This document shows positions 3,257 through 39,492 of a DNA stretch of 42,000 nt, piece after piece. A program made the position numbers and the translations under genes. Below the pieces are notes generated by a model that saw only the letters and a list, made by a program, of their open reading frames with translations, did no database searches and was not told the origin of the DNA. Source of the stretch: a virus; IMG/VR virus record IMGVR_UViG_3300020185_000104, positions 1 through 42,000 of that record; one strand, written 5' to 3'. The stretch's first letter is position 1. Each line of letters opens with the position of its first letter.

Positions 3257-3271
3257 AGTTTTTTTGTAAAG

Positions 3272-3301: not shown

Positions 3302-3320
3302 GCTCAGTTACCTATTGTGT

Positions 3321-11100: not shown

Positions 11101-13271
11101 AGAGAGACAAAAGAGCTAACATTAGGCTTGCCTGCCATCTTAGACTTGTCAAATAAGAAGTAGTTATCCTGGACAACCTCTAAAGACACAGAGCCACCGT
11201 CCTGAACTAGTCCGTTGGTAGCGTCATATATCTTAGGTTGTGCTGTTGAAGGAAAGGCTTTTGCGTTAGAGTCTTGTGTTCTGTAAACAAGATCTGAATA
11301 AGAGTCTATGTCTTCCTTTTGTCCTTGACCTGTAGACTTGTTTTCTCCCCACACGATTAATTCGTGGAAATACATACTATCAATGTCAGATGACTGACCT
11401 GACTCATTCACCTGTATGGATGTTATAGAGCTGGTTAGGCCAGATCCAGAGGTTACAGCACCATTATAGCCAAACTCAGAAGAAGCTCCGTCATGAGCAC
11501 CATAAATGTGATTGACCACTTTTTGAGGCATAAAACCAGAAGGTTCTATAGAATTTACCCCGTCAGAAACATAAAGCTCCTTAGTAGCACCACTTTGAAT
11601 TGACACATTTCCCCCGAAGTCAATGTACTTGTATCCGTCTACGTTTCCTAGCGCTCGAAAAAAGGTTGTGGAATAACTAAATGGTGTAGGGATAGACAAA
11701 GAGGAAACAGACATGCTTTGACGGTAACTACCAGCGGATGCGCCAAAGCTAAATCCAACCTCTCCGTTTACTGTATTGAGAAGAATTTCGGGCATCTCAT
11801 CCCTTGATGACTGAACTAAGTGCCTTCCGTTTCCAGATTGGTCATAAATCTTAGAAGCCCTAATAATAGTCAAGGCACCATGAGTCTGAAGTGCTTGAGA
11901 TCTAAAAGTAGAAAAAGTTTTTGATATACTGCCAGCAGAGTCAAACTCAATGTCTGAAGTTGAGATAAGAGCATAAGGAGAGGTAGAAGAGAAGATAGAG
12001 ACCTCGAAACAAGGACCTGTGTAAGAAGTACTGAGCCTCTTAGTAGAGTAAGCTGCTTCAGACCCTGTGTGATAATCAAGAAGTCTTCTTCTAAGTGTTT
12101 CGTTGGCGGAAGCCTGATCAAACATCATTACAACCCTCCCAGTAGTTGAAGCACCTAAAGAATCTGGGTCAGAAGAACCTGAATCACCTAAGAACTGACC
12201 TAAGGTAGTGGCCTTACTTGGAGGTACCAATAAATGAGGTCCAGCAGCTATACCTGTTGTTTTTTTAAAGCACTCTGAAACAGTAGAGCTAAGTGAGACA
12301 AACCCAGAAGTGTCTGGAAAAACAAATACTTCCTTGTGGTCCACCTCTCTTCGAACGGAAACAAGAGGGTTTGAATCCTCTTTATTTAAAGAGCGCAAAG
12401 AAAACGCATTCGCAACACCATCAAACCTATTCAAAAAAGCTGTCGTGTCGATATCACCTCGGTTAGAGTAAGACAGAGGAGCCTGCCTCTCCCTAGTTGT
12501 CACCACCTCTACGTCTCTTCTTCTTTTACCCTTCTTTGCTCTTGGGTATATATAGAAGTCGGACAGAGAACCCTGTCCTGCGCCTATTTTAGTTATTCCA
12601 GTAGAGGCAAAGGTTCCAGATACAGTTAAGGTGTTGTCTGATCTTGAGTCAAAATCAATAGAGGTTGAACCACCTTTTTTATATCCGTTTAAATGAGTGT
12701 CACTATCTGTGATTTGAGAAAGTGTAATACCATTAGCTGGGGTTGAAATATCAATCAACTCATTTGTCCCATCAAACAGCTTTAAATCAACAAACGGAGA
12801 CAAAAGCCGAAAAGAAAGATAAACAGTAAAGTCACCAACAAGCTCCATAGAGTCCATATGGCGAGAGTCAAGATAAACTGTAGGACCATTATCCCCCTGA
12901 TAAACAGTCCCAGTATTACTAATGATTCTAGGTTGAGAATCTGCAACAACCTGAGTCATGTGGTTGTTTGATCCACTCTGATCGTACCAAACAGCAACCG
13001 TAGCGATAGAAGGGGACCCAAGGGAATCTACGTCGGTATACGAAGCGTTTGCTACAAACTCACCAAGATTGGTAGCCGAAGAAGTTCCAGAGGATATGCT
13101 GATCCTGGAATCAAGGCTTATCACCCCGTTAGCGTCAGCTCTAACCTCAGCATGAGCAGAGTCGGCACGCCTCCTTACGCGCATAATCGCACGCTGATAG
13201 TTTCTGCGAAGAATTCTAGTTGAGTATGCGCCTAAAGCTGAAGGCTGTTTTTCTAGTATAAGTGATTCCAT
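8121..13271 (-). CDS. Giant tail fibre/receptor-binding protein with six GH54 AbfB-like repeats
   Basis: 1716 aa from the ATG at 13271, whose A is shared with the TAA of the upstream gene; the open frame continues to 13337 but the coupled ATG is preferred. About six repeats start near residues 12, 280, 404, 865, 1145 and 1443. A full repeat reads: (G)AAAAYS(L/V)R(K/L)L...Y.GP, RRxSDxxExDVY, then V.WYDQSGNGNDA(T/A)Q, QP.I, ENGKPAVEFDG, and a C-terminal LQE(I/L)IIY...IE.NIN.(Y/F). The first half, especially RRASD and WYDQSGNGN, resembles the catalytic domain of fungal alpha-L-arabinofuranosidase B (GH54), a concanavalin-like jelly roll. Carbohydrate binding is likely; catalysis cannot be judged. 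Repeats 2 and 3 are divergent. Confidence 0.75.
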   Translation of the reverse strand: MESLILEKQPSALGAYSTRILRRNYQRAIMRVRRRADSAHAEVRADANGVISLDSRISISSGTSSATNLGEFVANASYTDVDSLGSPSIATVAVWYDQSGSNNHMTQVVADSQPRIISNTGTVYQGDNGPTVYLDSRHMDSMELVGDFTVYLSFRLLSPFVDLKLFDGTNELIDISTPANGITLSQITDSDTHLNGYKKGGSTSIDFDSRSDNTLTVSGTFASTGITKIGAGQGSLSDFYIYPRAKKGKRRRDVEVVTTRERQAPLSYSNRGDIDTTAFLNRFDGVANAFSLRSLNKEDSNPLVSVRREVDHKEVFVFPDTSGFVSLSSTVSECFKKTTGIAAGPHLLVPPSKATTLGQFLGDSGSSDPDSLGASTTGRVVMMFDQASANETLRRRLLDYHTGSEAAYSTKRLSTSYTGPCFEVSIFSSTSPYALISTSDIEFDSAGSISKTFSTFRSQALQTHGALTIIRASKIYDQSGNGRHLVQSSRDEMPEILLNTVNGEVGFSFGASAGSYRQSMSVSSLSIPTPFSYSTTFFRALGNVDGYKYIDFGGNVSIQSGATKELYVSDGVNSIEPSGFMPQKVVNHIYGAHDGASSEFGYNGAVTSGSGLTSSITSIQVNESGQSSDIDSMYFHELIVWGENKSTGQGQKEDIDSYSDLVYRTQDSNAKAFPSTAQPKIYDATNGLVQDGGSVSLEVVQDNYFLFDKSKMAGKPNVSSFVSLSTSDSRGYLYAVNGAYYGPRLNSSTSASYVNNFGTPSSFLNGEEVTTSNTIQAYNLISDSTKKILSTVGADSSAWETGATESEITLLNYYQDGGSNDTLSGKFQEFLFFNSDVSNDRAAIENDMSAAFNSYSLARSKGTQKLLNEYPGAAAAYSVRQLNANYSGPIMRVDNGYTELDIYPLPNGDLDTESIIQHAKANSFNPNAKISVWYDQSGNGNDAAQAVNSSQPTICRNLSIVYENGKPAVEFDGTDDGLRTSNEVMTGSSICLIGVVKSTTTGNISTRYLDQTGANGAALRGRGEVSGNYLLDSFSSIGNSSEFLRPAIDYGGSQIVQTANWVSGGSAMHVNGAQVATNTNTFTGGGNTGIDMGVGYEASGNRQFHQGTLQEILIYNDNKSTDRIDIEFNINKYFDISPQGPTKLLLDKHPGAAAAYSLRKLSTKYAGPAIKIRRASDSLEADVYFDKSGNISLESIVTNVPETTIGKPQSNATFNLGVATLGEFVGNIRYNSAGVTDAFVVVWYDQSSNGNDAQQLTAASQPKVVNAGFVVAEGKKPAVEFDGANDLLQNLNIGTSQVSEATIYSVFHKISGEGGVVNWSGSNSLANTIRYTTSPAGYRFGWSSSSVGTDTGAQLLFTGQQDGANGIMNIDGTSQGTFTVETNRYWDGIIYMGKPPWLSSPQMKMSEFVMYWSVNSASEITDIETNINNHYSIFTPELELGLINEFDGAAAAYSLRLLNYFYQGPLVRVRRDSDHVEVDVYPDENGVFSERSLVKNAVESSTGVSVGSPNDSKAFRFGEFAYGANCFVVEWKDQSSNSNHATQNAAASQPKIYDSATGVVTENGKPAVDNQGGTQELQLTSSLTGMETIIAVAKQDNGATNGYLIGASADYSLRSQGGWRPITGSPAANVNDFYFNGSIYIDGVSVTSNLTTSNQILIAANSATGGYNYALEFIGGTYPSRHWDGPIQELIIFSSEQSTSNRTGIETNINTFYNIF

Positions 13272-14839
13272 TAATCGTAGTAATCTTCGGTTTGACCAGG
13301 AATTTCTGGCGGTAGGTTCTGACCTGTCGAGCTCCACAGACTATCTACAAAGTCAGAGTACTCAAAAAACGCTATAGTATTATCTTTAGGCAAAATAGGG
13401 AACATGATGTACCTCATAGAAATTGGAAGGGCAATCAACTCACTATACGGCCTTGTTGTTGTCCCATATTCTATAGATTCAACCCTTAGCATAAAAAATC
13501 TTTTTGCGTCGTCCATAGCGGACAAAACTCCTATATCGGTTAAATCTTCTATTTTTTCATCATCACCATAAGAGCTGATAAGGTTTTTAGCCTTAAAGTT
13601 TCTTACGTCTAAGTAACCAGTGTAAGAAAAGAAAGCCTCAGATGTAACCAAATCAAGAACAAATCCGTCAATGGCAACCTTACTGCTACCAGTAGGTATG
13701 TCATCCTGAGACGTTTTATTTAAAAGAACCTCTATGTCTGGGTATCTTCTTTCTGCGTAATCTTCGGAAATACCATTAAATTCTAATGCAGCAACTAGGC
13801 CAAGTTCGTTAAAAACAGATTCAACAGTTGGGTTCGGAGGGTAAAACAAAATGTCTTCATACCCTAAGTTCAACATACTAACCTTTATTCTTTTCTGTTC
13901 TTCATTAGATGGATTCCAAGGGTCTGGAAGATTAAAAGCGTTATTAGGATCTGAAGGATCAACAGGAAATTTAAGGGTAAATTGTAGTTTAAATCTATTA
14001 CCTTCATTGTCGCTTCCGCTCGACATAACAGAAGTTGGATTCGCTATATACATAGGAAATTCAGAGTCGCTTAGAAGATCACCGTTTATGCTAAGGTTTA
14101 CGGAGACGTCGTTGTCTTCATCAAAGGCCTCTGGAATTAAACCACCAGAACTCCTAAACTGGAAATCAGCTGGCTCTGGATCTACAGGATCTGGATCGAT
14201 ATTAGGAGGTGAAGTAGGGTCGCTCCAAACAATTTGCTCGCTTGGGGTAAACCGTCGAACAACCAGGAAATAATGGCTGTTCACGTTTATCTGCTCAACG
14301 GTAGGATATATAGATTCGTCGCCGTCGGTAAATGCAAAATACCATCCAGAATTGTTAGATACCCCGCTATTTGGGTCGCTTAAATATTGACTCCAATTAA
14401 GCGGTGACGCAACCAAGTAAGGGTTTGAAGCATCAGCTGATTGATAGTCATCAGTGAAAGCAGGGTTATCATAAATGTGATCTAAAAAACTTTGAAATTC
14501 ACCAGGGCTAGCCGATCTCCAACCCGTGTACTCAGCAGCATCTTCCTCCCCCTCTTGAACGACCTCAACGTGATTGGGAATATCATTTGCAGCATCAAAG
14601 AGAGTAGCCTTAGAGTCGTCTCCAAAGTAGTAGTGACTTGGATAAACCTCAGTGTATGTGATGTAGCTTCCGTTTTCATCGGAGTCTCCATCTGAATTAG
14701 ACCGAAACCACGATATGACATACCCAGCTTCACCAACAGACCCATAGGCGAGGACATTAAATCCAGGGCCATCTGGAGTGACAGAAACAAAAACAGTACG
14801 CCTTCTAGCCTTGTTTATAGCATTACCTAAGCCTAGCAT
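13271..14839 (-). CDS. Putative tail/baseplate structural protein, unknown family
   Basis: 522 aa. N-terminus MLGLGNAINKARRRTVFVS; the remainder is Asp/Ser/Pro/Tyr-rich and beta-like, with a Pro-Asp linker at about 205-225 (NIDPDPVDPEPADF). No membrane helix or catalytic motif is seen. Its stop overlaps the start of the giant fibre gene (TAATG), so both are made together; the protein probably attaches or organises the fibre. TATATTTG at 14867-14874 lies 27 nt before the ATG, so this gene pair may be its own transcription unit. Confidence 0.55.
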   Translation of the reverse strand: MLGLGNAINKARRRTVFVSVTPDGPGFNVLAYGSVGEAGYVISWFRSNSDGDSDENGSYITYTEVYPSHYYFGDDSKATLFDAANDIPNHVEVVQEGEEDAAEYTGWRSASPGEFQSFLDHIYDNPAFTDDYQSADASNPYLVASPLNWSQYLSDPNSGVSNNSGWYFAFTDGDESIYPTVEQINVNSHYFLVVRRFTPSEQIVWSDPTSPPNIDPDPVDPEPADFQFRSSGGLIPEAFDEDNDVSVNLSINGDLLSDSEFPMYIANPTSVMSSGSDNEGNRFKLQFTLKFPVDPSDPNNAFNLPDPWNPSNEEQKRIKVSMLNLGYEDILFYPPNPTVESVFNELGLVAALEFNGISEDYAERRYPDIEVLLNKTSQDDIPTGSSKVAIDGFVLDLVTSEAFFSYTGYLDVRNFKAKNLISSYGDDEKIEDLTDIGVLSAMDDAKRFFMLRVESIEYGTTTRPYSELIALPISMRYIMFPILPKDNTIAFFEYSDFVDSLWSSTGQNLPPEIPGQTEDYYD

Positions 14840-17898: not shown

Positions 17899-18296
17899 GG
17901 CATTTCTTCTTCAGGGAACCATCCGTTATCCTCCATATATTCCTGCGTTCGAATCGTTGTATCGCTCGGCACGATATGCCCAAACGGGAACTTCTGATTG
18001 ACTTGCACGTAACTGCTAAGGCTGTACCGCTCATCGTTCGAAAGCTCAGGGAAGCACGCTACAAGGCGTTCGAGCGTTGCCGCTGGGTGTACGTTTATGA
18101 TGTAATCGGTATCCACTTGCAACGCGTTCTGTACTCCGTCAGGGTGCGTAACGATACCGAAGACGGCAGAGTCGACTTCCCACTCTGCCTGTATGAGAAC
18201 GGGTCGAGAGATGTTGTACAGCTCGCGGGTAATTTGCTTTGCCCGTGCTTCGCTTGTCTGCGTGGGCGTAGGTAGTACTATGATATATCCTTGCAT
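17895..18296 (-). CDS. Small fibre-associated protein, paralogue of 7712-8110
   Basis: 133 aa. Full-length paralogue of the 132-aa protein at 7712-8110, with shared FG.(V/M)..HP.(G/S), DxDY.I.VHP, FPEL, FGHIVPS and a near identical end (M.DNGWFPEE). The ATG at 18296 shares its A with the TGA stop of the fibre gene (TGATG), so it is translated in coupling with it. In both loci the small gene directly follows a GH54-repeat fibre gene, so it likely helps fold, cap or attach that fibre. No enzymatic motif is seen. Confidence 0.7.
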   Translation of the reverse strand: MQGYIIVLPTPTQTSEARAKQITRELYNISRPVLIQAEWEVDSAVFGIVTHPDGVQNALQVDTDYIINVHPAATLERLVACFPELSNDERYSLSSYVQVNQKFPFGHIVPSDTTIRTQEYMEDNGWFPEEEMP

Positions 18297-20779
18297 CAGT
18301 AGATGTTGTAGAAGGTGTTGATGTTGCTTTGAATGTTTGCGGTATTGCCTGCGGTTTCTTGGTCAGATTCCCACACTATCAACTCTGAATAATCCACTCT
18401 ATTACTGCTGCTGGCGTAAGAAAACCGCCCGCCAATTATGGATAAATTTAAATTTGCTCCACCACTTGTAAAACTAACTGAAGCTGGTTGCGCTCCTGTT
18501 GCCTTGGTCTGTCCAAATGAATTTACACCATTCCCTACTCCCAAAATGTGTTGATATTGCCCGACTAAATTGTTGCCGCCGTCAAGGTCTTCGCTTTGAA
18601 ACAGAACCGCGTTCAGTTGTATCTTTATTTGCTCGTTATTTCCTAATAAGAATCCGTAATTGTTGTTATCTCTACCTACAAAGCTGACTGTATATGGCTC
18701 TGCAATTGAAAGCGAGGTTGTCATCGGGCCATAATAAACACCTCCGTCTAAAGAAACAATACAAGGCTTTCCGTTTCGAGTAATCACGCCCGTCGTGCCG
18801 TCATAAATTTTCGGCATGTTCGCGGTGTTCGTTTGGGTCGCGTGGTTGCTTCCTGTCTGCGAATACCACTTCGACACGAACCCATCGTTTGACCCACAGT
18901 GGTCAGCCAGTGCAACCGTATCGAGTTCGCCGAATACGTTAAACCCGATGTCCGCGTAACTGCTCCCGTTGTAAACCTCCACCGCTGAGCCAACATAGCT
19001 CGAGTCCAAAAGGCGCAAGGAATAAGCCGCTGCTGCACCTGAATACGTGTCGAGGAGTGGCGTGTTTTGGGTGAAGTAGTCGCCTATGTTTTCTTCGATG
19101 CTCGTTTGGTCGGTGCCTGATTTGTCGGCATCGTAAAGAATCACCTCTTGAAAAGTACCACCAAAATAACGGGCGTTTCCGTCACGATAAGAACCAAGAT
19201 TAAAGCCGTTCATACCCGTTACGTTTGGAGGCGTTGCGGTTCCTAAACTTGAACCGTCAGCAAATAATTCTAAATTGGTCGTGCCGTTTTTATTGACGGT
19301 GACAATTCTTCGACTTGAATCAAATTGAATTGAGCTTTCAATGTTCACGGTAGTTGTTGCCGCTGAACCTGAAAACGTCCTGATTTTGCTTGGCAAAGCG
19401 CTTTCGCTGTATTCTAAGCTAGGATTGTAAACGCTTGAACCTGTTGAAGTCGTTTCGATTAAGAATTTTCGTGCGCTTCCACCCGTTACCCTATGAACAA
19501 AATACAAAGCGAAATTTGTGCCGAATAAATCTGAAGTTGACGCATTTAGATAATCATTGATTCCATCCAACTGAACAGCCACCTTTCCATTCTCCTTCAC
19601 CAACGCGCCCCCCGTGTAAATCGTCGGTTCGTTTGCAGGTGCCGCCGCCGTCGCTGTATTTCCGTTTCCTGATTGGTCAAGCCACTGATACACCGTGCAA
19701 GTCGTACCCGTGCAGAACGAAATAATATCAGCCTCCGAGATGTTGCCTGAACCGTCGAAGCCGATTGTGGTGGTCGTCGAGTCCGATGCCCTGCGAATCA
19801 CCATGCATTCCGTCGCCGCGTTCCGAAGTTGCCGCGTTGAATAAGCTGCTTCCGCACCTGAGCCAAAGGTCTCATCGAGAAGATACGCGGTTGCGCTCAC
19901 CTCCTCCCACGTTTGCTTGAGGCTTATCGGAACGGTTCCTCCCGTCCTCGCTTTGAGGTATTCCAAAAGAGCCGCCTTCACAGTAGCGAAAGAAGCATCG
20001 TCTGCGGGTGCAGGTGTGAATTCAACCCAAGTCCCCGTGTCAGGGTCTGCAAAACCTTCCTCGGAATAGTAAATCTTTCGCTTGATTATATTCCCCGCTG
20101 TCGGAGTGTCGCTCGATGCGCTCTCTGCGAGTCCGTCCCCGTCCGCTTTAGCCGTGTAATAAAGCTCCACTGTTTCCGTTGCACCGCTTCGGAATGTCTC
20201 CGCGTCCGTTTGAAAGCGATTGTGATACTGGGTATCAATTGCGATGTCTGCCCACTCAACATCGTAATCCGTTCCCGTAGCCTTCACGAGAGCTTGTCCC
20301 GTGGTGCCTCCTGCTGGAAGGGCCTCTAGGTCCTCATTTAGCCATTCACCGCTAAAAGAGTCATAGCGTATAATCTGATCGTCCTGAAGGCTTGTTATGT
20401 TCGTATCTGCAAGTCCGCTAACTCCAGGTGTAGGTGGTGGAGAAGGAATTGTAATAACTACATCTCCGTCTTGTCCGTTTACACTTTTTACACCGCCAGG
20501 CACCCATTTCTGAGAGGCTGCATCATACACAAGCGAGTCACCGCCCTGTGGGGTGGGAATATTCGTGTCGCTTAAATCTGAAAGGGTTGTAGCAACAGCC
20601 TCCATAGCAAAAGTGCCGTCGGATTGCTGAGTAAGTACATGACCTTCAGCGCCATGAGCTGAATTAACGTCTATGAGCTCGTTTAAATAAAGCTGTACGC
20701 TAGAAAGCGCAGATACCCCAGGCGACACCTTGATCACGTTGTTAGACGGGGTTGTTATTTGAACTTTTACGCGGGCCAT
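18296..20779 (-). CDS. Tail fibre protein with two GH54 AbfB-like domains
   Basis: 827 aa. The N-terminus (NNVIKVSPGVSALSSVQLYL) is the same virion-anchoring segment as in the protein at 14914-17523. Residues 60-170 hold DLSDTNIP and LADTNIT fibre-shaft repeats. Two GH54-like domains occupy about 303-565 and 575-827; the first has RRASDSTTTTIGFDGSGN, FCTGTTCTVYQWLDQSGNGN; the second has a variant KWYSQTGSNHATQ in place of WYDQSGNGN. The stretch LLDTYSGAAAAYSLRLLDS is nearly identical to the other gene. The start is coupled to the upstream gene by TAATG. It is likely a receptor-binding protein recognising a polysaccharide. Confidence 0.75.
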   Translation of the reverse strand: MARVKVQITTPSNNVIKVSPGVSALSSVQLYLNELIDVNSAHGAEGHVLTQQSDGTFAMEAVATTLSDLSDTNIPTPQGGDSLVYDAASQKWVPGGVKSVNGQDGDVVITIPSPPPTPGVSGLADTNITSLQDDQIIRYDSFSGEWLNEDLEALPAGGTTGQALVKATGTDYDVEWADIAIDTQYHNRFQTDAETFRSGATETVELYYTAKADGDGLAESASSDTPTAGNIIKRKIYYSEEGFADPDTGTWVEFTPAPADDASFATVKAALLEYLKARTGGTVPISLKQTWEEVSATAYLLDETFGSGAEAAYSTRQLRNAATECMVIRRASDSTTTTIGFDGSGNISEADIISFCTGTTCTVYQWLDQSGNGNTATAAAPANEPTIYTGGALVKENGKVAVQLDGINDYLNASTSDLFGTNFALYFVHRVTGGSARKFLIETTSTGSSVYNPSLEYSESALPSKIRTFSGSAATTTVNIESSIQFDSSRRIVTVNKNGTTNLELFADGSSLGTATPPNVTGMNGFNLGSYRDGNARYFGGTFQEVILYDADKSGTDQTSIEENIGDYFTQNTPLLDTYSGAAAAYSLRLLDSSYVGSAVEVYNGSSYADIGFNVFGELDTVALADHCGSNDGFVSKWYSQTGSNHATQTNTANMPKIYDGTTGVITRNGKPCIVSLDGGVYYGPMTTSLSIAEPYTVSFVGRDNNNYGFLLGNNEQIKIQLNAVLFQSEDLDGGNNLVGQYQHILGVGNGVNSFGQTKATGAQPASVSFTSGGANLNLSIIGGRFSYASSSNRVDYSELIVWESDQETAGNTANIQSNINTFYNIY

Positions 20780-26008: not shown

Positions 26009-26025
26009 CTTATTTAATTTTATTG

Positions 26026-26099
26026 TACCCCCGCTAGGACTCGAACCTAGGACCCACAGCTTAGAAGGCTGTTGCTCTATCCAACTGAGCTACGAGGGC
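26026..26099 (-). tRNA. tRNA-Arg (anticodon TCT)
   Basis: A canonical cloverleaf on the minus strand: acceptor GCCCTCG with CGGGGGT (one G-U at the first pair and one internal U-G), D-arm GCTC/GAGC with loop AGTTGGATA, anticodon stem ACAGC/GCTGT with loop CTTCTAA, T-arm CTAGG/CCTAG with loop TTCGAGT, and discriminator A. CCA is not encoded. It reads AGA codons, which are frequent in this phage. It lies between the zinc-ribbon gene and a small gene in the late block. Confidence 0.95.
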
Positions 26100-26471: not shown

Positions 26472-27042
26472 ACATAAGGTCTTCTGCGCGGGTGCGGTAA
26501 TACTCCTTGTCGTCTATCTTGATTCTGTAGTCCATGTTCTTAGCGAATCCGACTACATCACCTACTTTTAATCCTAGTTCATCCACCCAAGGCGCCGCAA
26601 ATGCGACCATGCCTTTAGTGACAGGCGATTCCTTAAGCGTAACAACCTCGATGATGTCTGATTTCTTTTCTTTTTCTTCTTCCACTCCTTCGAGAAGCGC
26701 CCACCCCGCCAGCGGACGTACTCTTCCAGTCTCCTGGCACTTGTAAGCAATAGCCTGATTATTAATGGTAGCAGTAGGATCGAATCGAACAAGATAGTGA
26801 TTATCCTCACCAGTAAGAGGCTGACCATCATTAACAACAACGAGATGATGGAAGTAGAGTGTGTCACCAGCTTTGACTCCAGTATCGTATTTAAGCGGTG
26901 CTGAAACCACGACGGCTTCGGTAGTTCTGTTTTGGAATTCATTGAATCTATTGTCTATGTAAAGCTCAAGACCACTATTGGTCGTGATCGTATCGTTGAC
27001 GAGCTTTTCTATCTCGACAACAAACAAATCAAGTGTTTTCAT
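26458..27042 (-). CDS. GroES-like co-chaperonin
   Basis: 194 aa with two parts. Residues 35-110 contain AVVVSAPLKYDTGVKAGDTL, YFHHLVVVNDGQPLTGEDNH; residues 125-194 contain SPVTKGMVAFAAPWVDELGL, KVGDVVGFAKNMDYRIKIDD and end EYYRTRAEDLMYVEV. The end matches the GroES pattern G(D)xVxFxK.....kidg.eY...r..Dil.v. GroES proteins cap the chaperonin GroEL; phage versions (as T4 gp31) help fold the capsid protein. Two GroES-like segments exceed the usual 95-aa single domain, so this is an enlarged or duplicated version. The gene lies at the start of the late unit, before terminase. Confidence 0.65.
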   Translation of the reverse strand: MKTLDLFVVEIEKLVNDTITTNSGLELYIDNRFNEFQNRTTEAVVVSAPLKYDTGVKAGDTLYFHHLVVVNDGQPLTGEDNHYLVRFDPTATINNQAIAYKCQETGRVRPLAGWALLEGVEEEKEKKSDIIEVVTLKESPVTKGMVAFAAPWVDELGLKVGDVVGFAKNMDYRIKIDDKEYYRTRAEDLMYVEV

Positions 27043-27045
27043 AAA

Positions 27046-27282
27046 TTAAAAGTTTAAATCAAATTCAAGCATACAGGGCATCTCGTCTATGGATTTCCAC
27101 AGCAAGGTACCTTCATCGTTTTCAATATACACAAGGTATCTCTTCTTGCCAAACTTATGGAGATAATGATCGTCCTCCAGTATAGCAGATACCTGGCCTC
27201 TACCAGCTTTCATGCCGATATAATAAGCCATGCCGTCTTTCGGCTCCTTGCCGACGACAATTTTTCTAATAAGTCCTTCCAT
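27046..27282 (-). CDS. Small hypothetical protein
   Basis: 78 aa: MEGLIRKIVVGKEPKDGMAY, YIGMKAGRGQVSAILEDDHY and an acidic end. It looks like a compact beta-rich domain without Cys or membrane segments. It is 1 base from the upstream gene and 3 bases from the GroES-like gene, so it is in the same operon. I do not recognise the family. Confidence 0.55.
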   Translation of the reverse strand: MEGLIRKIVVGKEPKDGMAYYIGMKAGRGQVSAILEDDHYLHKFGKKRYLVYIENDEGTLLWKSIDEMPCMLEFDLNF

Positions 27283-27283
27283 T

Positions 27284-27580
27284 TTAGTTTAGGGATATAC
27301 CCAAATCACCCAAGAGGTCGTCTAATGAATCATCTTCTTGATAAGCGTTATCCATGACTTCTTTTAGTGTGTTTAGCTCTGCCCTACTCTCTAGGTTAAA
27401 GCTGTACATGGTCTTCATTTCTGCGCTTTCATCGCCAGTCTCAACAGAGTCAAAGTCTATAACACCTACAACTATAGAGGCTAGAGTGCGATCTTTCATT
27501 TCGAACTCATCAATTGTCTCCTCCATCTTTTTGACGAGAGAATACATTTCGGCAAAGAAGAGGGTGTCTTTCGGGTTCAT
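27284..27580 (-). CDS. Small acidic hypothetical protein
   Basis: 98 aa, strongly acidic and helical: MNPKDTLFFAEMYSLVKKME, ETIDEFEMKDRTLASIVVGV, ending DSLDDLLGDLGISLN. It is the first gene of the leftward unit from 27.6 kb and is preceded by TATATTTG at 27600-27607. The neighbouring gene at 27621 runs the opposite way. No family is recognised. Confidence 0.55.
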   Translation of the reverse strand: MNPKDTLFFAEMYSLVKKMEETIDEFEMKDRTLASIVVGVIDFDSVETGDESAEMKTMYSFNLESRAELNTLKEVMDNAYQEDDSLDDLLGDLGISLN

Positions 27581-27599
27581 GATGTAAATTTGTTTAAGT

Positions 27600-27607
27600 C
27601 AAATATA
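27600..27607 (-). promoter_or_regulatory. TATATTTG motif, candidate late promoter for the GroES/terminase unit
   Basis: Minus-strand octamer in the 40-base divergent gap between genes at 27580 (minus) and 27621 (plus). A TTGACTT lies about 20-25 nt upstream, a possible degenerate -33 element. Confidence 0.45.
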
Positions 27608-27620
27608 CGACACAATTCAG

Positions 27621-28040
27621 ATGCCTAAGTCAACCGTTAAGAAGACAAGATTGTTTCGAGAGGTTTCGAAGCTACCAGAGAAGTATGTAAAGAATAACTA
27701 CTTAAAGAACTTACGTAGTGCTACAGATGAGTTCCTGGAGAGCAACCCAGACCTAACGAGGTCGTATCTACAGCTAATGCTGTTCTTATATGATTTAGAG
27801 TTCTTTACTATATCGTGGGTGGCAGAGAACTACGGTATGTACAAAAAGAACCTAGCTGACAGAATGATATACCCCCTTGTATCTAGTGGTTATCTATACA
27901 AACACTTCGATAAACTTACGCCGTCTCAAACCTTAGAGGATCACTTGTTTCGTGATGAGACAAAATACAACTACAGGGTTCGTTATGCGCTATCTCAGAA
28001 GGGTAGGCTAGCGGTACAGCGATTCTATAACTCTCTTTAG
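27621..28040 (+). CDS. Winged-helix-like protein, single plus-strand gene in the late block
   Basis: 139 aa: MPKSTVKKTRLFREVSKLPE, KYVKNNYLKNLRSATDEFLE, then LTRSYLQLMLFLYDLEFFTI, SWVAENYGMYKKNLADRMIY, PLVSSGYLYKHFDKL and YRVRYALSQKGRLAVQRFYN. The second half follows a MarR/winged-helix layout: helix, recognition helix around NYGMYKKNLADRMIYPLVSSG, then a beta hairpin and 'LSQKGR(L)AV' typical of such wings. It is the only plus-strand gene left of 30.4 kb and faces the small basic gene at 28037, with overlapping stops. A DNA-binding regulator or a virion wHTH protein is possible. Confidence 0.6.
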   Translation: MPKSTVKKTRLFREVSKLPEKYVKNNYLKNLRSATDEFLESNPDLTRSYLQLMLFLYDLEFFTISWVAENYGMYKKNLADRMIYPLVSSGYLYKHFDKLTPSQTLEDHLFRDETKYNYRVRYALSQKGRLAVQRFYNSL

Positions 28041-28171
28041 CGGCCCTGACCTCGATACTTTTTCTTGTAGTTCTTGCTTGTTTTATTGCTAGATGTTTTG
28101 GTCTTAGCATGTACTCCTGGGCGTTTTACGTTACCTTCTTCTGGAGCGTAGTTGTTTAATTGCTTTGCCAT
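28037..28171 (-). CDS. Small basic protein, unknown
   Basis: 44 aa: MAKQLNNYAPEEGNVKRPGV then HAKTKTSSNKTSKNYKKKYR and GQGR. It starts at 28171 with a one-base overlap (TAATG) on the stop of the endolysin gene and ends in an overlap with the convergent stop of the plus-strand gene. NYAPEEG...KRPGVHAKTKTS is a wording I recall from tiny proteins of related Bacteroidota phages. It is very basic and probably disordered; the role is unknown. Confidence 0.6.
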   Translation of the reverse strand: MAKQLNNYAPEEGNVKRPGVHAKTKTSSNKTSKNYKKKYRGQGR

Positions 28172-28632
28172 TATATTACTTTATAATAAACCCCTTTACT
28201 GTCTCGGTAGGCTCGCTTGATCTGCTTTCTGTTCTTCCCACTCTCTTTAAATGATACGTGTACCCAGGCAGGGTTCTCGTCATCTCCGAACTCCCATATC
28301 ATCTGATCCCACTCTAGGTTCTTCTTGATGAAGTCGAATATCTGAGAGTTAGTGACCTTCCCATACATATCGGCGTCTATATCAATAGCCTCCCCAATCA
28401 TATGCTGAGAGTATTTACTCCCCCCAATCGCCTTGTTTAGCTCTTTTGACCTAAAGCCAGAAGTAACCCCGATGGGTACACCGAAGTGATCACGTATTGG
28501 TTGGAAGATATGGTCCGCTACAGCCTGTAGGTTATTAATTGCCCACTGGTCAGGGGTGTTGTCAATCCCTTTTCTTGTCGCGGTGTTGGACTTCACCACT
28601 TCTCTTAGCGTTAGATTTTTGCTTAACTTCAT
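28171..28632 (-). CDS. Endolysin, peptidase M15 family (D-Ala-D-Ala carboxypeptidase/L-Ala-D-Glu type)
   Basis: 153 aa from the ATG at 28632 (MKLSKNLTLREVVKSNTATR); an upstream TTG at 28653 is the alternative start. Visible M15 signature: VTSGFRSKELNKAIGGSKYS, QHMIGEAIDID with Zn ligands His and Asp, then the C-terminal MIWEFGDDENPAWVHVSF with the second His. M15 enzymes cut peptidoglycan cross-link or stem peptides, so this is the likely lysis enzyme. There is no signal peptide; release would need a holin. The gene is followed by a coupled small basic protein. Confidence 0.85.
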   Translation of the reverse strand: MKLSKNLTLREVVKSNTATRKGIDNTPDQWAINNLQAVADHIFQPIRDHFGVPIGVTSGFRSKELNKAIGGSKYSQHMIGEAIDIDADMYGKVTNSQIFDFIKKNLEWDQMIWEFGDDENPAWVHVSFKESGKNRKQIKRAYRDSKGVYYKVI

Positions 28633-28708
28633 TGAATTTATTTTTCTCTGCAATATACGCAGGGTTTATCCGCTTAAGCCTCGGATTGAAGTAGTTCTTA
28701 CTACCCAC
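28562..28708 (-). CDS. Possible 48-aa basic protein with GTG start
   Basis: The frame opens with GTG whose G is the last base of the TAG stop of the upstream gene (TAGTG), copying the one-base overlap style found throughout this phage. It encodes VGSKNYFNPRLKRINPAYIA, then EKNKFNEVKQKSNAKRSGEV and stops at TGA 28564-28562, overlapping the endolysin start by 71 bases in another frame. The 75-base gap between the neighbours would otherwise be empty. Supported by start geometry and composition only. Confidence 0.4.
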   Translation of the reverse strand: MGSKNYFNPRLKRINPAYIAEKNKFNEVKQKSNAKRSGEVQHRDKKRD

Positions 28709-28926
28709 TACCTGTTAGAGTAAACCCTATAAAAGGTCTTCTTGGTCTTTGGGTCTGTAATAGCAACTAACTTGTGTTTAGCCTTACCAGTGGTTGGGCC
28801 TAACTTGTTTGTCATATTGTGAGACTTTGCTCTGGCTAATGCAATAGCCTCTTTGGCTGTTTTACCTTCAGTCGTCCAACCAGAATAACTATCAAGCTTC
28901 TTTTTAGGATCTGTTACTTTCCTCAT
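28708..28926 (-). CDS. Small basic hypothetical protein
   Basis: 72 aa: MRKVTDPKKKLDSYSGWTTE, GKTAKEAIALARAKSHNMTN, then VAITDPKTKKTFYRVYSNR. A short helix followed by a beta hairpin is likely. It starts in a 4-base overlap (ATGA) with the gene upstream. No family is recognised. It belongs to the group of small lysine-rich proteins that dominate both ends of the late block. Confidence 0.55.
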   Translation of the reverse strand: MRKVTDPKKKLDSYSGWTTEGKTAKEAIALARAKSHNMTNKLGPTTGKAKHKLVAITDPKTKKTFYRVYSNR

Positions 28927-29936: not shown

Positions 29937-30365
29937 CTACTTCTTAGATTTAATGTATTTCTTGATCTCCTTACGAGTCTGTATATAGTTCTTTTTAATT
30001 CGCTTCCTGTCTGACCTCATGTCCTTCATGGCTTCTTTAGCTCCAGGATCTTTGTCTCTCTTTAATTGCTTGGCAATAAGCTTGCGTCTTTCTACGGCGT
30101 GGCGAGCAATCTGTCGGGCTTTCTTTCTTATACCCCCACCATTTTTATAACTAGCTGGAGAGCTCAGCCTGGTTCTTCTAATGAAGTTGCCTTCCGTGTC
30201 TTGGGTAAGTTCCGACCCAAGCTGTCGTTCTTCAGGGGTTGCCTTAGAGTTATAAACCTTGTCTGCAACTTCTCTCCTCTTGCTCTTTCCTACAGCACCA
30301 GAGTAGGGGGAGCTAAAGTCTACATCTGTAGATCTTTTAAAAGGCTTTTTTTTCTTAGCTTTCAT
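29937..30365 (-). CDS. Lysine/arginine-rich protein, first late gene
   Basis: 142 aa, more than 30 percent Lys plus Arg. It starts MKAKKKKPFKRSTDVDFSSP (compare MKAKKKCNCG at 6802), has SYKNGGGIRKKARQIARHAV and a helical basic tail (MKDMRSDRKRIKKNYIQTRK). It is the first gene leftward of the divergent region, with TATATTTG ending 4 nt before ATG. A DNA-condensing or virion-packaged role is suggested by charge; no domain is recognised. Confidence 0.6.
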   Translation of the reverse strand: MKAKKKKPFKRSTDVDFSSPYSGAVGKSKRREVADKVYNSKATPEERQLGSELTQDTEGNFIRRTRLSSPASYKNGGGIRKKARQIARHAVERRKLIAKQLKRDKDPGAKEAMKDMRSDRKRIKKNYIQTRKEIKKYIKSKK

Positions 30366-30377: not shown

Positions 30378-30617
30378 ATGAAGACAGTTTTAGCGCCTTT
30401 ACAACTTAATTAGTTTGATTGACGCTCCGTAGCTTCTGTTTTATTACTTTCATAAGTAATCCTAAAGACAGCTTCGTAGGTTTAAAACATCTATGAAGCT
30501 TTATCGCTGAATAGCTTTGGCGAAGTTACAACTTTTTTCTTACAAAGTCAAGTCAGTAAAACACTTTAATGAAACCCTCTAAGCCTCTAAGCGACAGCCT
30601 ATTAACCAGTATAAAGA

Positions 30618-30651
30618 GGTGGTTTGTGGATAACTCTGTGCATAAGCCACC
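30618..30651. promoter_or_regulatory. Two DnaA boxes inside a stem-loop
   Basis: TGTGGATAA (30625-30633, reverse complement TTATCCACA) and TGTGCATAA (30637-30645, reverse complement TTATGCACA) both match the bacterial DnaA consensus TTATNCACA exactly, in the same orientation, 3 nt apart (12-nt pitch). GGTGGTTT and AAGCCACC (one G-U) flank them as an 8-bp stem. Confidence 0.7.
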
Positions 30652-30804
30652 GCAAGAAGCGGCGAAAAAAGGGGATCGCCAAAAAATTTCTGTGTAATAC
30701 AGAGTTTGGGGATTCTTTTATACGTATGAACGTTGTGTCCTCGAAACCGAAACGAATCTCGTAAACCCCGTAGGTATAATGCAAGGGGGTTTTAGCCAGA
30801 ACTT

Positions 30805-31199
30805 TTAGCCTTTAGGCTAATCAGATAAGTGGCTAACTTCTACGAAGTTAAGAGTTGATTGTAGTTAACTAACTACTAATCAAAGGAATAGAGTCGATTG
30901 GTTAGAAACAGCTTGAAGCTAAACTACTCCGTAGTTCAAGAGGAACCACTGTCAATCCTCCCCCTAACCTCTTAGGTTAGATAACAACCTTCAATACTGA
31001 AGGTTAACTATCTCTTCAAGAAGAGATGCTCAAGAGGCTGAAACTGAGGGCTTTCCTCCAACGCATTGAATCCCTAAAGGGATCGTATCTTGGTAGTCAA
31101 GGCGTGAGTATCAACTTGTTGATACCGTAGGTTGAATGGAGTAGAGATAGAGTATATGAAGAAGGAGTCTTATGACTTCTTCATTTACTCTTTATCTCT
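30805..31199. repeat. Array of short hairpins
   Basis: Successive perfect or near-perfect stems: TTAGCC/GGCTAA (30805-30820), TAACTTC/GAAGTTA (30834-30850), GTAGTT/AACTAC (30861-30876), AACTAC/GTAGTT (30922-30936), CTAACCT/AGGTTAG (30964-30980), AACCTTCA/TGAAGGTT (30986-31005), ATCTCTTC/GAAGAGAT (31010-31027), ATCCC/GGGAT (31070-31083), GTATCAAC/GTTGATAC (31108-31125), and a long one at 31143-31199 (AGAGATA, GAGTA, ATGAAGAA and GTC pairing with their complements, with small bulges). Stem sequences differ from each other; only the shape repeats. Confidence 0.8.
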
Positions 31200-31255
31200 T
31201 AAAGGTTTGGTTTTGGAAGTCAGCCATCCTTTAGGAAACTCAAAATCTCTTAACA

Positions 31256-31984
31256 ATGTCGAAGACATTAGAAAACAAATCAGCTATGCTGAAAGACCTC
31301 AAGAAAGCTGTAAACAGCTTTGTTTACTCTCCTTCGGAGAGCAAGTTGGCAAACTGCCGACTCCAAGTTACTGAACTTGTTCAGTTCCTTCAGTCCATCG
31401 AAGTTCCGAAGGAAGAGGATAAGAAGCCAAAGGCTTCTAAGTCAAAGTCCAAAGCTTCCAAGCCGAAGGCTACTCCGAAGCCAAAGGCTTCCAAGTCTTC
31501 CAAGCCGAAGGCTTCTAAGTCTTCGAAGAAGACAGGGAGAGTGGCTGAAATCGAAGCCCTTCTATCTTCTGGTAAGAAGATGAAGAGAGCAGAACGTTCC
31601 GTTCTGAACAAGGAGTTGTTTGCTCTGCAAACAGCAGAGAGACGCTCTTCAAAGAAGAGCAAGTCAAAAGCTGTCCGTCGTCCTAAGAGGACGTCAGCTA
31701 ATGGTCTTGAGTTAACTCAAGCTAAGACAGCAACTGCCAACAAGGTTGGCAAGGTCAAGAAGACCAAAGTCGTCAACGCAGTTGACGGTGGTGAGGCTCA
31801 GCCGTTCGAACCTCGTAAAGAGGTTCCAGTAGTCGAACCGAAGGTTCGTCGGAAAGAGCAAATGAAGTTGACTCTCCTGGAAGGAGAGACTCCTCAGGAA
31901 GCGATGGCTCGGCACCGCTCTGCTCAGATAGAGGCGGAGCGCCTTGAAGCCTTGGCTTTGATTGCTGAAACTGCTCCATTCTGA
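31256..31984 (+). CDS. Lysine/alanine/serine-rich histone H1-like DNA-binding protein
   Basis: 242 aa. Residues 1-50 form a helical domain (MLKDLKKAVNSFVYSPSESK, LQVTELVQFLQS). Residues 55-95 are a KAS/KPKA repeat tail as in bacterial histone H1-like proteins; residues 100-160 add more Lys/Arg-rich helix (SSGKKMKRAERSVLNKELFA), and the C-terminus (residues 205-242) is helical and acidic-basic mixed. A chromatin-like or genome-condensing early protein is plausible. The coding DNA is unusual: it is filled with short triloop hairpins, and the stop codon TGA lies in the hairpin TGATAAC/GTTATCA (31982-31998). It is the first gene of the early block. Confidence 0.65.
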   Translation: MSKTLENKSAMLKDLKKAVNSFVYSPSESKLANCRLQVTELVQFLQSIEVPKEEDKKPKASKSKSKASKPKATPKPKASKSSKPKASKSSKKTGRVAEIEALLSSGKKMKRAERSVLNKELFALQTAERRSSKKSKSKAVRRPKRTSANGLELTQAKTATANKVGKVKKTKVVNAVDGGEAQPFEPRKEVPVVEPKVRRKEQMKLTLLEGETPQEAMARHRSAQIEAERLEALALIAETAPF

Positions 31985-32034
31985 TAACGTAGTTATCAAT
32001 TCATTAGTTATAAAACCCTTTAAATCATAGATTT

Positions 32035-32277
32035 ATGTCAATTTACTCTTTTATCTTCCCCCTTGGGGAATCAGAATTCCGCACAAAAATGTGCTTTCCG
32101 TCCGTGGCAGACGCTCAGACTTGGGCGGCTGGGCAACTCCTCAAAGATGGGAGTGAATGGTGCCTCCTCAAGGAGGTTCCTTCGAGCGACCACGTGTTCG
32201 ATCCCGTGGAGGAAGCGCACTATGCTGTCCGCTGGACTGCGGATATGCCTTACTTCGATACTCTCTTCATCGACTAA
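32035..32277 (+). CDS. Small hypothetical protein
   Basis: 80 aa: MSIYSFIFPLGESEFRTKMC, FPSVADAQTWAAGQLLKDGS, ending DMPYFDTLFID. It looks like a small alpha/beta domain with two Cys and many aromatic residues. The start ATG follows an AT-rich leader (GATTTATG). A palindromic ACCCTAAAGGGT (32280-32291) follows its stop. The family is unknown. Confidence 0.55.
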   Translation: MSIYSFIFPLGESEFRTKMCFPSVADAQTWAAGQLLKDGSEWCLLKEVPSSDHVFDPVEEAHYAVRWTADMPYFDTLFID

Positions 32278-32302
32278 TTACCCTAAAGGGTAGAAAATTA
32301 AA

Positions 32303-32334
32303 TTTGGAAAGATGGAAAGTATGTTCTATCTTTG
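32303..32334 (+). promoter_or_regulatory. Early promoter P1 (Bacteroidota type)
   Basis: TTTG (32303-32306), exactly 20 nt, TATCTTTG (32327-32334): a full match to the Bacteroidota -33/-7 consensus. The -33 flank AAATTAAATTTGGAA is shared with P2. The transcript leader has GGC/GCC pairing (32340-32351) and the box TCAAAATCTCAAT (32356-32368), ending 3 nt before ATG 32372. Confidence 0.88.
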
Positions 32335-32539: not shown

Positions 32540-32670
32540 GAGCGTTACTACTGATGGGTGCTCTTGCGATAGTGTCCTTGGGTTCAGCCCAAACTTCAGA
32601 AGATTCCTCCCCTGAAGGGGAGCAACAAACAATCACTCAAGCGGATGATGATGATGAGTCCGCAGGTTAG
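32536..32670 (+). CDS. Small exported peptide (signal peptide, 44 aa)
   Basis: MRALLLMGALAIVSLGSAQT is a textbook signal peptide with a probable cleavage after GSA; the mature part is only about 25 residues, acidic, ending in DDDDESAG. The start overlaps the previous stop (ATGA). The acidic Asp run is encoded by GAT repeats within a GCGGA/TCCGC stem (32641-32663). The TAG stop ends at 32670, the first base of the hammerhead ribozyme. A role at the cell surface or periplasm, such as inhibiting other phages, is possible but not shown. Confidence 0.6.
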   Translation: MRALLLMGALAIVSLGSAQTSEDSSPEGEQQTITQADDDDESAG

Positions 32671-32722
32671 GAACTCTGATGAGCCTTAAGTAGGCGAAAC
32701 ACTACATAGTAGTGTCAGTTTC
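32670..32722 (+). ncRNA. Type I hammerhead ribozyme
   Basis: All conserved parts are present in order. Stem I GGAACT (32670-32675) pairs with AGTTTC (32717-32722), one G-U. Core CTGATGA (32676-32682). Stem II GCCT/AGGC with loop TAAGT (32683-32695). Core GAA (32696-32698). Stem III ACACTAC (32699-32705), loop ATA, GTAGTGT (32709-32715), including the A15.1-U16.1 pair. C17 is 32716; cleavage would fall between 32716 and 32717. Stem I is the open one, so it is type I. Cleavage would separate the small exported peptide message from the next gene and leave a 26-nt leader with 5'-OH before ATG 32743. Confidence 0.9.
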
Positions 32723-32742
32723 AATTTATTTATTTCTTTATT

Positions 32743-33105
32743 ATGAAAAACTTCTTTTTCATCCTTGCCATCTCTATGGCATCCGCAACCTTTGGTCAAA
32801 CCTTCCAAGCAAAAACCATCGGTGGCAATGGTGTAGGCTTCGACACATCAAGCGGGATCGACGCAGACGAGAACCTTATGGTTCAGGGAGAGTCCTTCGA
32901 AGTGTTCAAGACTACCTCTGGTAGTAAGTACATCAAAGCTATCTCACCTCGAACAGGGGACGAGTATGCGGTGTGGGTAGGCACAGAAACTGAATTCAGT
33001 TTCGAAGGACAGCCAGTTTACGAAAGCCGCAATGGTTCGTACTGCATCTATCTGCTCGGAGGGAACAACTTCCCTTACTCTAAATGGCTCGATGTAGTCG
33101 AGTAA
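32743..33105 (+). CDS. Exported protein of unknown function
   Basis: 120 aa. MKNFFFILAISMASATFGQT is a signal peptide with probable cleavage before QTFQA; the mature part of about 100 residues is beta-rich (NLMVQGESFEVFKTTSGSKY, AVWVGTETEFSFEGQPVYES) with one Cys. Its start follows the hammerhead ribozyme by 20 bases. A phage-made exported protein expressed early suggests superinfection exclusion or envelope change; that is inference. The coding DNA contains several perfect hairpins, including an 18-nt palindrome at 32986-33003 and CTCGA/TCGAG across the stop. Confidence 0.65.
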   Translation: MKNFFFILAISMASATFGQTFQAKTIGGNGVGFDTSSGIDADENLMVQGESFEVFKTTSGSKYIKAISPRTGDEYAVWVGTETEFSFEGQPVYESRNGSYCIYLLGGNNFPYSKWLDVVE

Positions 33106-33117
33106 CTTATCACTATC

Positions 33118-33198
33118 AGCGGCTACCTACCTAAGTACCCATCGCGAGGGGAACAGGGATGGAGGTCAGTGTCGCAGGGTTCGACTCCCTGAGCCGCT
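33118..33198 (+). ncRNA. tRNA-like RNA 1 (acceptor stem plus T-arm)
   Basis: AGCGGCT (33118-33124) pairs perfectly with AGCCGCT (33192-33198). Directly before the 3' strand is a complete T-arm, CAGGG/CCCTG with loop TTCGACT, matching the tRNA T-loop consensus. The 50 nt between lack a D-arm; ACCT/AGGT and CCATC/GATGG can form a long irregular helix instead. No CCA is encoded. Acceptor and T-arm stacked together form the minimal substrate of RNase P, which suggests a processing site between the genes at 32743 and 33221. Confidence 0.7.
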
Positions 33199-33220
33199 CT
33201 AATTTTTTAATCTATTCAAA

Positions 33221-33646
33221 ATGAATACAATGTTTTCAACCCACGCTATTCGCCTTGCCTATGGCAAAACCCTCATGGATGGTGGCTCATCCTTACTCAC
33301 GTCAGACGGCTACGACTTTGAAGTCCCTTATAAGGGCTTCATGGTAGGCGGCTTATCAGGCGAAACCAAAATCCCTTTGGATATCTGCGACTCCACTACG
33401 TTTCACTCTATCTGGCACAAGTACTCAGCCGAAGTGCGCAAGCTAATCAAGGACAACCCTTCCTCCTCGTATGCCGTAGGCACTTGGGTTGACAAGGGAT
33501 GCATCGTCTTCGACGTATCGGAAAAACTTACTGACTCTCGCTCTGCCTATGATTTGTGCAAGGAGCGCAACGAAGATGCCTACTATGATGTAGAGGCAAG
33601 CAAAAGTGTTTTCATAGAAAAAGATAATGACAATGCAGAAGCCTGA
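33221..33646 (+). CDS. Hypothetical early protein
   Basis: 141 aa: MNTMFSTHAIRLAYGKTLMD, GGSSLLTSDGYDFEVPYKGF, MVGGLSGETKIPLDICDSTT, then a helical acidic C-terminus. It looks like one mixed alpha/beta domain without a known motif. An A-rich leader (TCAAAATG) precedes the start, following tRNA-like RNA 1. It overlaps the next small gene by 20 bases. Confidence 0.6.
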   Translation: MNTMFSTHAIRLAYGKTLMDGGSSLLTSDGYDFEVPYKGFMVGGLSGETKIPLDICDSTTFHSIWHKYSAEVRKLIKDNPSSSYAVGTWVDKGCIVFDVSEKLTDSRSAYDLCKERNEDAYYDVEASKSVFIEKDNDNAEA

Positions 33647-34074: not shown

Positions 34075-34106
34075 TTTGGAAAAACGAAAACTCTGCCTTA
34101 TCTTTG
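34075..34106 (+). promoter_or_regulatory. Early promoter P2 (Bacteroidota type)
   Basis: TTTG (34075-34078), exactly 20 nt, TATCTTTG (34099-34106). The leader has TGTC/GACA pairing (34110-34123) and TCAAAATCTCAAT (34127-34139), ending 3 nt before ATG 34143, as in P1 and P3. Confidence 0.88.
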
Positions 34107-35520: not shown

Positions 35521-35552
35521 TTTGGAATAACGGAAACTAATTCTTATCTTTG
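35521..35552 (+). promoter_or_regulatory. Early promoter P3 (Bacteroidota type)
   Basis: TTTG (35521-35524), exactly 20 nt, TATCTTTG (35545-35552). The leader has GGCAA/TTGCC (35557-35568) and TCAAAATCTCAAT (35572-35584), ending 3 nt before ATG 35588. Confidence 0.88.
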
Positions 35553-39360: not shown

Positions 39361-39464
39361 CAAGGGGAGAGATGGATGGTGTGCAGGGAGATCCTGCAAC
39401 GTGCCAGTTGCCTAGCGATAAGCACCATTGAGAGCATTGAGAAACAAAGTCTCTCCTTCCCTTG
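39361..39464 (+). ncRNA. Branched structured RNA of unknown type
   Basis: CAAGGG/CCCTTG (39361-39366 with 39459-39464) and GAGAGA/TCTCTC (39367-39372 with 39450-39455) form an outer helix with a 3-nt bulge. ATGGTG/CACCAT (39376-39381 with 39423-39428) stacks on the hairpin TGCAGG/CCTGCA (39382-39398). GTGC/GCAC is an alternative pairing. The -33 element of P4 lies in its 3' strand. There is no U-tract, so it is not a simple terminator. Confidence 0.6.
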
Positions 39465-39492
39465 GATTAATCACAATTAAACTTTAACTTTG
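39461..39492 (+). promoter_or_regulatory. Early promoter P4 (Bacteroidota type)
   Basis: CTTG (39461-39464), exactly 20 nt, TAACTTTG (39485-39492): one mismatch in -33 and a full -7 match. ATG 39507 follows after 14 nt. The leader box of P1-P3 is absent. It drives the replication/recombination genes. Confidence 0.75.

Follow-up and report, generated by a model that had tools for sequence, protein, structure and literature searches.

The window analysed here is a 42,000-nt stretch of viral DNA (positions 1 to 42,000 of IMG/VR record IMGVR_UViG_3300020185_000104), in which leftward structural genes and small rightward genes of early type diverge from a junction. The phage is one of a marine clade. 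Its terminase and portal families, together with the nearest isolates (the Flavobacterium Elemovirus, Cellulophaga podoviruses and MW202828), assign it to a group of Bacteroidetes podoviruses with a distant relationship to the crAss-like phages. The structural arm includes a tRNA-Arg(tct) gene (26025-26099, minus strand), and the virion proteins encoded at 8121-13337 and 18296-20779 contain an alpha-L-arabinofuranosidase-like stretch (PF09206) and are candidate spikes for binding or degrading host glycans. Bacteroidetes-type TTG-N-TAnnTTTG promoters stand before rightward gene groups (32304-32334, 34076-34106, 35522-35552 and 39462-39492). On the rightward side of the junction only, an array of very small hairpins runs through an untranslated leader and the gene behind it (Table 1).

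Table 1. Features of the hairpin-bearing locus and its surroundings (window coordinates).
Feature	Position	Strand	Remarks
First gene of the leftward (structural) arm	29937..30365	-	array on the other side of the junction
Conserved block GGCGAAGTTACAAC, then T-rich run	30519..30532	+	from alignment; upstream of the array
Perfect DnaA box TTATCCACA	30625..30633	-	sole perfect one in the window
Second DnaA-box-like 9-mer	30637..30645	-	one mismatch
Conserved element ATACAGAnnnTGGGGATT	30697..30714	+	left edge of the array
Mini-hairpin array core	30805..32292	+	leader, CDS and following small ORF; ~35 distinct perfect hairpins of at least 6 bp
Leader hairpin ATCTCTTC-AA-GAAGAGAT	31010..31027	+	
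Leader hairpin GTATCAAC-TT-GTTGATAC	31108..31125	+	
CDS of the 242-aa protein	31256..31984	+	20 perfect stems of at least 6 bp vs 1.8 codon-shuffled
Overlapping, mutually exclusive hairpin pair	31304..31327	+	AAAGCTGT-AA-ACAGCTTT and GTAAACA-GCTT-TGTTTAC
Hairpin CTCTCCT-GGA-AGGAGAG	31872..31888	+	synonymous changes only
Stop-codon hairpin TGATAAC-GTA-GTTATCA	31982..31998	+	kept in relatives
Following 80-aa ORF	32035..32277	+	kept in L103 and L126
Bacteroidetes-type promoter TTG-N20-TAnnTTTG	32304..32334	+	right edge of the dense array
Weaker array tail	32607..33227	+	hairpins at 32607, 32699, 32743, 32911, 32986, 33060, 33213

The 242-aa protein is basic and largely disordered, and its predicted model (pLDDT 66.5) consists of five helices joined by disordered basic linkers. 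No match was obtained in Pfam, PHROG, PADLOC or PDB, nor in phage records. The gene had been called histone-like in a first-pass annotation; given that no histone-, HU- or H1-type family was matched in these four databases, the name describes amino-acid composition only.

The element at the left edge of the array occurs in one copy per genome checked, the window and the 63.5-kb relative G003 among them. It is common to array-bearing and array-lacking members of the clade (window 30697-30714, loci L053-L132), and the first rightward ORF begins about 400-550 nt downstream of it. The DnaA boxes at 30625 and 30637 are followed by a GGGGATT element and AT-rich DNA; in several relatives a DnaA box precedes the element by about 71 nt, in many there is none, and a DnaA-C domain protein was found in 9 of 10 genomes searched. 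The GC-skew minimum of G003 adjoins the array, a position confounded by the switch of gene orientation. From this setting we infer a putative promoter or origin element, and the array would adjoin an origin-like region, a putative replication origin. G003 is probably a complete genome in circularly permuted form; an open frame runs in phase across its ends (57510-63515 and 1-3411), giving a giant protein of ~3100 aa. Its large terminase lies in two open frames (26692-28825), split at residue ~370-382 of the window's 710-aa protein by a frameshift, an intervening sequence or an assembly error.

Eight triloop hairpins had been named in the CDS at first pass, and their coordinates, arms and loops were all correct, as a subset of those present. 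Counting perfect stems with loops of 2-5 nt, we found 28 of at least 5 bp, 20 of at least 6 bp and 13 of at least 7 bp. As controls, 2000 codon-shuffled versions were used, in which protein and codon usage are unchanged; these had on average 5.8 (maximum 13), 1.83 +/- 1.26 (maximum 6) and 0.52 (maximum 4) such stems, respectively, and none of the 2000 reached the observed 20. Controls with as many perfect stems, the outcome that the first-pass annotation had named as refuting its claim, were thus not obtained. Loops of 6-19 nt were not enriched in this CDS (2 vs 2.6 in codon-shuffled versions), so the excess is limited to very small loops. Triloops are not alone in this, 2-nt loops being strongly enriched too. 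The RNA minimum free energy (MFE) of the CDS lies 7.4 s.d. below that of codon-shuffled versions, but the antisense strand is 7.1 s.d. lower as well. The same codon-shuffle excess was found in 10 further array genes of relatives, one of them unrelated (at locus L115), which upholds the earlier suggestion that codon choice serves the hairpins besides the protein. Ten other genes of the window (four leftward, six rightward) were at or near chance in codon-shuffle tests, except 32743-33105, which has a small excess (2 vs 0.14, reached in 5 of 500 shuffles).

The description of a hairpin-saturated gene holds for the density of the CDS but not for its limits, as the cluster extends past the gene, from ~30.8 to 32.3 kb, leader included. 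The ~450-nt untranslated leader bears hairpins of the same kind as the CDS, at a lower density, and the 80-aa ORF has 2 against 0.55 expected, which is not significant. Within the 42-kb window, a clear departure from background was found only at 30.75-33.3 kb; most of the hairpins of the tail are common to loci L007/L008. When 18 genomes were aligned on the element, hairpins per 250 nt rose from ~0.15 upstream to 3.4 directly downstream, peaked at 5.5 at 500-1000 nt and were down to background at ~2.5-2.75 kb. A hairpin lies 24-25 nt upstream of the TTG-N20-TAnnTTTG promoter in the window and seven relatives. Directly before the start codon there is a single large imperfect inverted repeat (31143-31197, plus strand; 22-nt arms, 86%, 11-nt loop), which is different in kind from the mini-hairpins.

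Relatives were sought in IMG/VR by protein and by the conserved DNA element, and ~27 non-redundant ones, all metagenomic contigs, bear the array at the same place. Related genomes are not independent, and only distinct sequences or non-redundant arrays were counted. In genome G016 (locus L115; 71% terminase identity), the gene that follows this element encodes an unrelated 155-aa protein and contains 11 hairpins, compared with 0.39 in its codon-shuffled versions. Since the leader has hairpins of the same kind and the gene at L115 is unrelated, the array is a property of the locus and is not specific to the gene of the 242-aa protein. These results also bear on the idea that the stems are a by-product of low-complexity K/S/P/A coding, base composition or chance, to which a few hairpins within KPKAS repeats (e.g. 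31422, 31477) might be ascribed. We attach a negligible probability to it: same-protein codon shuffles do not reproduce the stems and, with the genome background of ten other genes at or near chance, rule out chance and composition, while a protein by-product is ruled out because the untranslated leader and the unrelated gene bear the array too.

The nearest terminase relatives of G016 (G011, G014 and G020) have the element with 0-1 hairpins, and G024, G012 and G013 likewise have ~2 hairpins; G005 is array-poor as well, and in several array-poor contigs little sequence follows the element. As array-rich and array-poor genomes are intermingled on the terminase tree, the array probably arose or disappeared on more than one occasion within the clade, and the members that have the element without the array indicate that the array is not essential to the element. 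G005 is a 68-kb contig with two terminase matches (3-785, 97%; 62246-64351, 87%) and may be a chimeric assembly. A T7 endonuclease-I-like gene was considered as a marker of the array and rejected, since array-poor G005 has it too and two array-bearing fragments yielded none. No comparable cluster was seen in the parts searched of cultured Cellulophaga and Flavobacterium phages and of MW202828 (the first 50 kb of records longer than 50 kb, except for MW202828), and the locus DNA had no match in phage or plasmid collections.

To describe the geometry, distinct hairpins of at least 6 bp were collected from 27 non-redundant IMG/VR arrays. Loops of 3 nt (189) and 2 nt (113) together gave 302 distinct hairpins, compared with 3-29 for each other loop length within 0-15 nt. 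Of these, 270 are closed by a 5'-pyrimidine..purine-3' pair and 32 by the opposite one, against 51 vs 45 in the rest of the window, and this bias was not seen for longer loops within the arrays. Stem-flanked 4-nt windows with complementary Y..R ends numbered 71 against 1.15 expected (62-fold over shuffled), those with non-complementary ends (true tetraloops) 29 against 8.35 (3.5-fold); block-shuffle expectations ignore codons, and the codon-aware controls are the codon-shuffle tests only. Stem length peaks at 6-7 bp for 3-nt loops and 7-8 bp for 2-nt loops, with one hairpin of 10 bp, none longer, and 4-bp stems at background level. Among the 189 triloops, GNA (49) and TNC (46) are about four-fold over composition (12.7 and 10.8 expected). 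Hairpins are most often spaced 24-31 nt from centre to centre. They all differ in sequence, and geometry alone is their common feature.

We then asked of the hairpins whether they are DNA or RNA. Selection could act on the rightward transcript, leader plus first gene, where tiny co-transcriptional hairpins might act in RNA stability, in protection from nucleases or RNA-guided defences, in preventing R-loops or in adjusting translation. The placement of the array agrees with this, as a promoter-like element stands directly before it and the next host-type promoter lies close to the end of its dense part, and stems of at most 10 bp would escape RNase III. RNA MFE was 6.5-10.8 s.d. below codon-shuffled versions in 8 array genes, but the antisense strand was equally extreme, sense being slightly better in 8 of 8. 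A composition-controlled count gave 25 stems with one G.T against 9.8 expected and 15 with one A.C against 13.8, a modest excess of G.T over A.C. However, wobble-tolerant RNA was not borne out by single-sided stem differences between relatives, where G.T was not preferred over A.C in either of two tests (14 vs 16, other 41; 8 vs 7, other 19); a first look at mismatch types outside the perfect cores gave no signal. Loop classes also speak against an mRNA fold: 2-nt loops far exceed true tetraloops, GNRA and UNCG tetraloops are not visible in the arrays, and GNA and TNC are equally enriched, so that loop orientation is free. Natural bacterial inverted repeats are mostly intergenic, often terminators, and favour 4-nt spacers (PMC13155455). 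Rfam covariance models detected no RNA family in the locus, the only match in the window being the tRNA at 26026-26099. All in all, we consider selection on the transcript, in any of these roles, unlikely.

DNA is known to fold into two-residue loops with a T-A or C-G closing pair (PMC5661647), and a C-GNA-G loop is needed for extrusion of the phage N4 hairpins at physiological supercoiling (PMC4496689). Given the wobble indifference, the strand symmetry and the parity of GNA and TNC, the array hairpins are probably DNA mini-hairpins rather than an mRNA fold. The mRNA structure implied at first pass, where SHAPE had been proposed, is not favoured by such a DNA-like, strand-symmetric signature. 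The G.T excess in one count and the slight sense advantage are hints that the plus strand may act as a single strand or as RNA.

Further evidence came from codon phase and from changes among relatives. Triloops in coding sequence start at codon positions 1, 2 and 3 in 33, 5 and 50 cases (chi-square p=2e-8), and when a triloop starts at position 1 or 3, 2/3 of the pairs include a third codon position; this bias indicates that the hairpins are built from synonymous freedom. With stems defined in a third genome, third codon positions differed at 0.04-0.19 within stems, at 0.09-0.58 within loops and at 0.11-0.30 outside both, stem third positions being up to 7-fold slower than those outside. At 31872, the window has ACT CTC CTG GAA GGA GAG and relatives have CCCTCTTAGAGGGTGAG (CCCTC-TTA-GAGGG), both encoding TLLEGE; a 7-bp hairpin stands in place of a 5-bp one, with its centre shifted and synonymous changes in both arms.

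Pooling compensated changes from every pair of genomes gave no information, as CDS and leader behave differently, and the two were split afterwards. In leader stems, at a minimum identity of 92%, both partners had changed in 26 base pairs and only one partner in 1 (~six independent events); in CDS stems the numbers were 3 and 17, and one-step paired arm changes were found in the leader but not in the CDS. Some of the paired leader changes are of transversion type, without a wobble intermediate. In relatives, the hairpin at 31010..31027 has the paired stem changes AACACTTC/GAAGTGTT and AATACTTC/GAAGTATT and an AA/TT flip of the loop, and that at 31108..31125 appears as GTATTAGC../..GCTAATAC with loops TT, AA or TA. 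Of 28 leader loops that had changed completely, 21 are exact reverse complements, in events that are not fully independent; by our own estimate, the loop pool would give about half for 2-nt loops and a third for 3-nt loops. In the first 13 genomes no clear excess over the loop pool was seen, and the larger leader set was higher.

In published work, template switching is recognised by homogenised arms and inverted spacers (PMC8604942, PMC8794818); in yeast it increases with transcription and with RNA-DNA hybrids (R-loops) (PMC3820800). Since one-step arm copying and loop inversion correspond to these signs, the leader hairpins appear to be partly maintained by template switching. This raises the question of whether mutation could suffice, with a template-switching hotspot linked to replication or transcription perfecting chance quasi-palindromes and the array being a scar without function. 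Besides the leader changes and the tie to transcription, the one-sided, fading hairpin density fits such a process. Nevertheless, we think this quite improbable: unbiased conversion would leave per-site rates unlowered, in conflict with the conserved third positions of CDS stems; the CDS is denser than the leader although the protein limits conversions; the stem-length band (peak 6-8, cut-off 10) is not expected of template switching; and the 31872 hairpin was re-made through synonymous changes in both arms. CDS conservation and the stem-length cut-off are thus unexplained by template switching and point to selection.

That the array exists, at a density well above anything obtained by codon shuffling, is shown by these data, as are its conservation, its recurrence and the constraint on its stems. 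The explanation that we prefer, at a little short of an even chance, is a selected array of DNA mini-hairpins at a divergent promoter or putative origin, extruded in early transcription or replication. According to this proposal, ~30-40 DNA hairpins (6-8 bp Watson-Crick stem, 2-3 nt loop, Y/R closing pair), laid one-sidedly from the element, would be extruded as cruciforms or hairpins from negatively supercoiled or transiently single-stranded DNA, in an N4-like manner, during early transcription or replication initiation. The opened, structured region may be used for replication loading or priming, or by a virion or early polymerase, and the codons of whichever gene occupies the locus would be bent to fit the hairpins. 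Once formed, hairpins may attract polymerase template switching, with arm copied onto arm and loops flipped, which would help to preserve perfect stems, an effect best seen in the leader. We infer that the nucleic-acid form is DNA and that the array most likely serves as an extruded or single-stranded hairpin stretch at the start of early transcription or replication. We also propose, tentatively and with the odds somewhat against it, an undescribed feature: a sequence-unrelated, size-limited mini-hairpin array in an arbitrary gene and its leader, kept by selection plus template switching as structured origin or early DNA, with several gains or losses within one phage clade.

In this locus, a protein-coding sequence clearly carries a second, dense nucleic-acid code, whose rules can be measured (in loop size, closing pair and stem length) and resemble those of DNA hairpins. 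If confirmed, it would mean selection on DNA secondary structure inside dsDNA phage genes, and would offer a natural, replicated test bed of array-plus and array-minus relatives and unrelated proteins at the same locus. Such a test bed could serve for cruciform extrusion and the start of replication or early transcription in Bacteroidetes phages, and for hairpin maintenance by template switching versus stepwise compensation. Published genome-wide inverted-repeat surveys use a 10-bp minimum arm (PMC13155455), so mini-hairpin arrays would be missed.

The first-pass annotation had named no described system with this property in a phage gene, and our comparison agrees in that none matching the array was found. 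The single-strand or primase-recognised origins sso, G4 ori and ssi consist of one to a few specific DNA hairpins. The array would share with them DNA hairpins that adjoin a putative replication region, on the strand exposed by a rightward fork, but has many unrelated sequences spread over a gene. In the genome-scale ordered RNA structure (GORS) of RNA viruses, coding sequence is saturated with local stem-loops via codon choice. The array likewise fills coding sequence with stem-loops through codon choice; unlike GORS, it lies in a dsDNA phage at one 1.5-kb locus, with DNA-like loops, no wobble preference and strand symmetry. G.U tolerance and sense bias of the GORS type were not found in the array (14 vs 16, 8 vs 7; strands alike), with a weak contrary hint in one count (25 vs 15). 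Template-switch or quasi-palindrome hairpins resemble the array in one-step arm homogenisation and loop inversion, e.g. AA/TT and GAA/TTC (PMC8604942, PMC8794818), but the known cases are scattered single events, whereas the array comprises dozens of size-limited hairpins at one locus, conserved at synonymous sites.

The early-promoter hairpins of the N4 virion RNA polymerase differ from the array in being three promoters with conserved bases, a fixed orientation and a start site, compared with tens of unrelated hairpins in either loop orientation through coding sequence. Conserved promoter bases and a fixed orientation of the N4 type were not seen in the array, where stems differ at every site and loop orientation is free, and the 2-nt loop class departs from the N4 loop geometry. 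As for an N4-type polymerase, Pfam and PHROG gave no polymerase match for the parts searched, and a DxDGD motif was not found in the frames of G003. The N4 geometry (5-7 bp stem, 3-nt loop, C-G closing, G..A ends) is present in about a quarter of the triloops per strand. Like the proposed DNA hairpins of the array, the N4 hairpins are small perfect DNA stems with 3-nt loops, closed by C-G with a 5' G and 3' A in the loop (C-GNA-G), have stem bases that are partly free if paired, and lie near early genes, and they are extruded by gyrase-driven supercoiling (PMC4496689).
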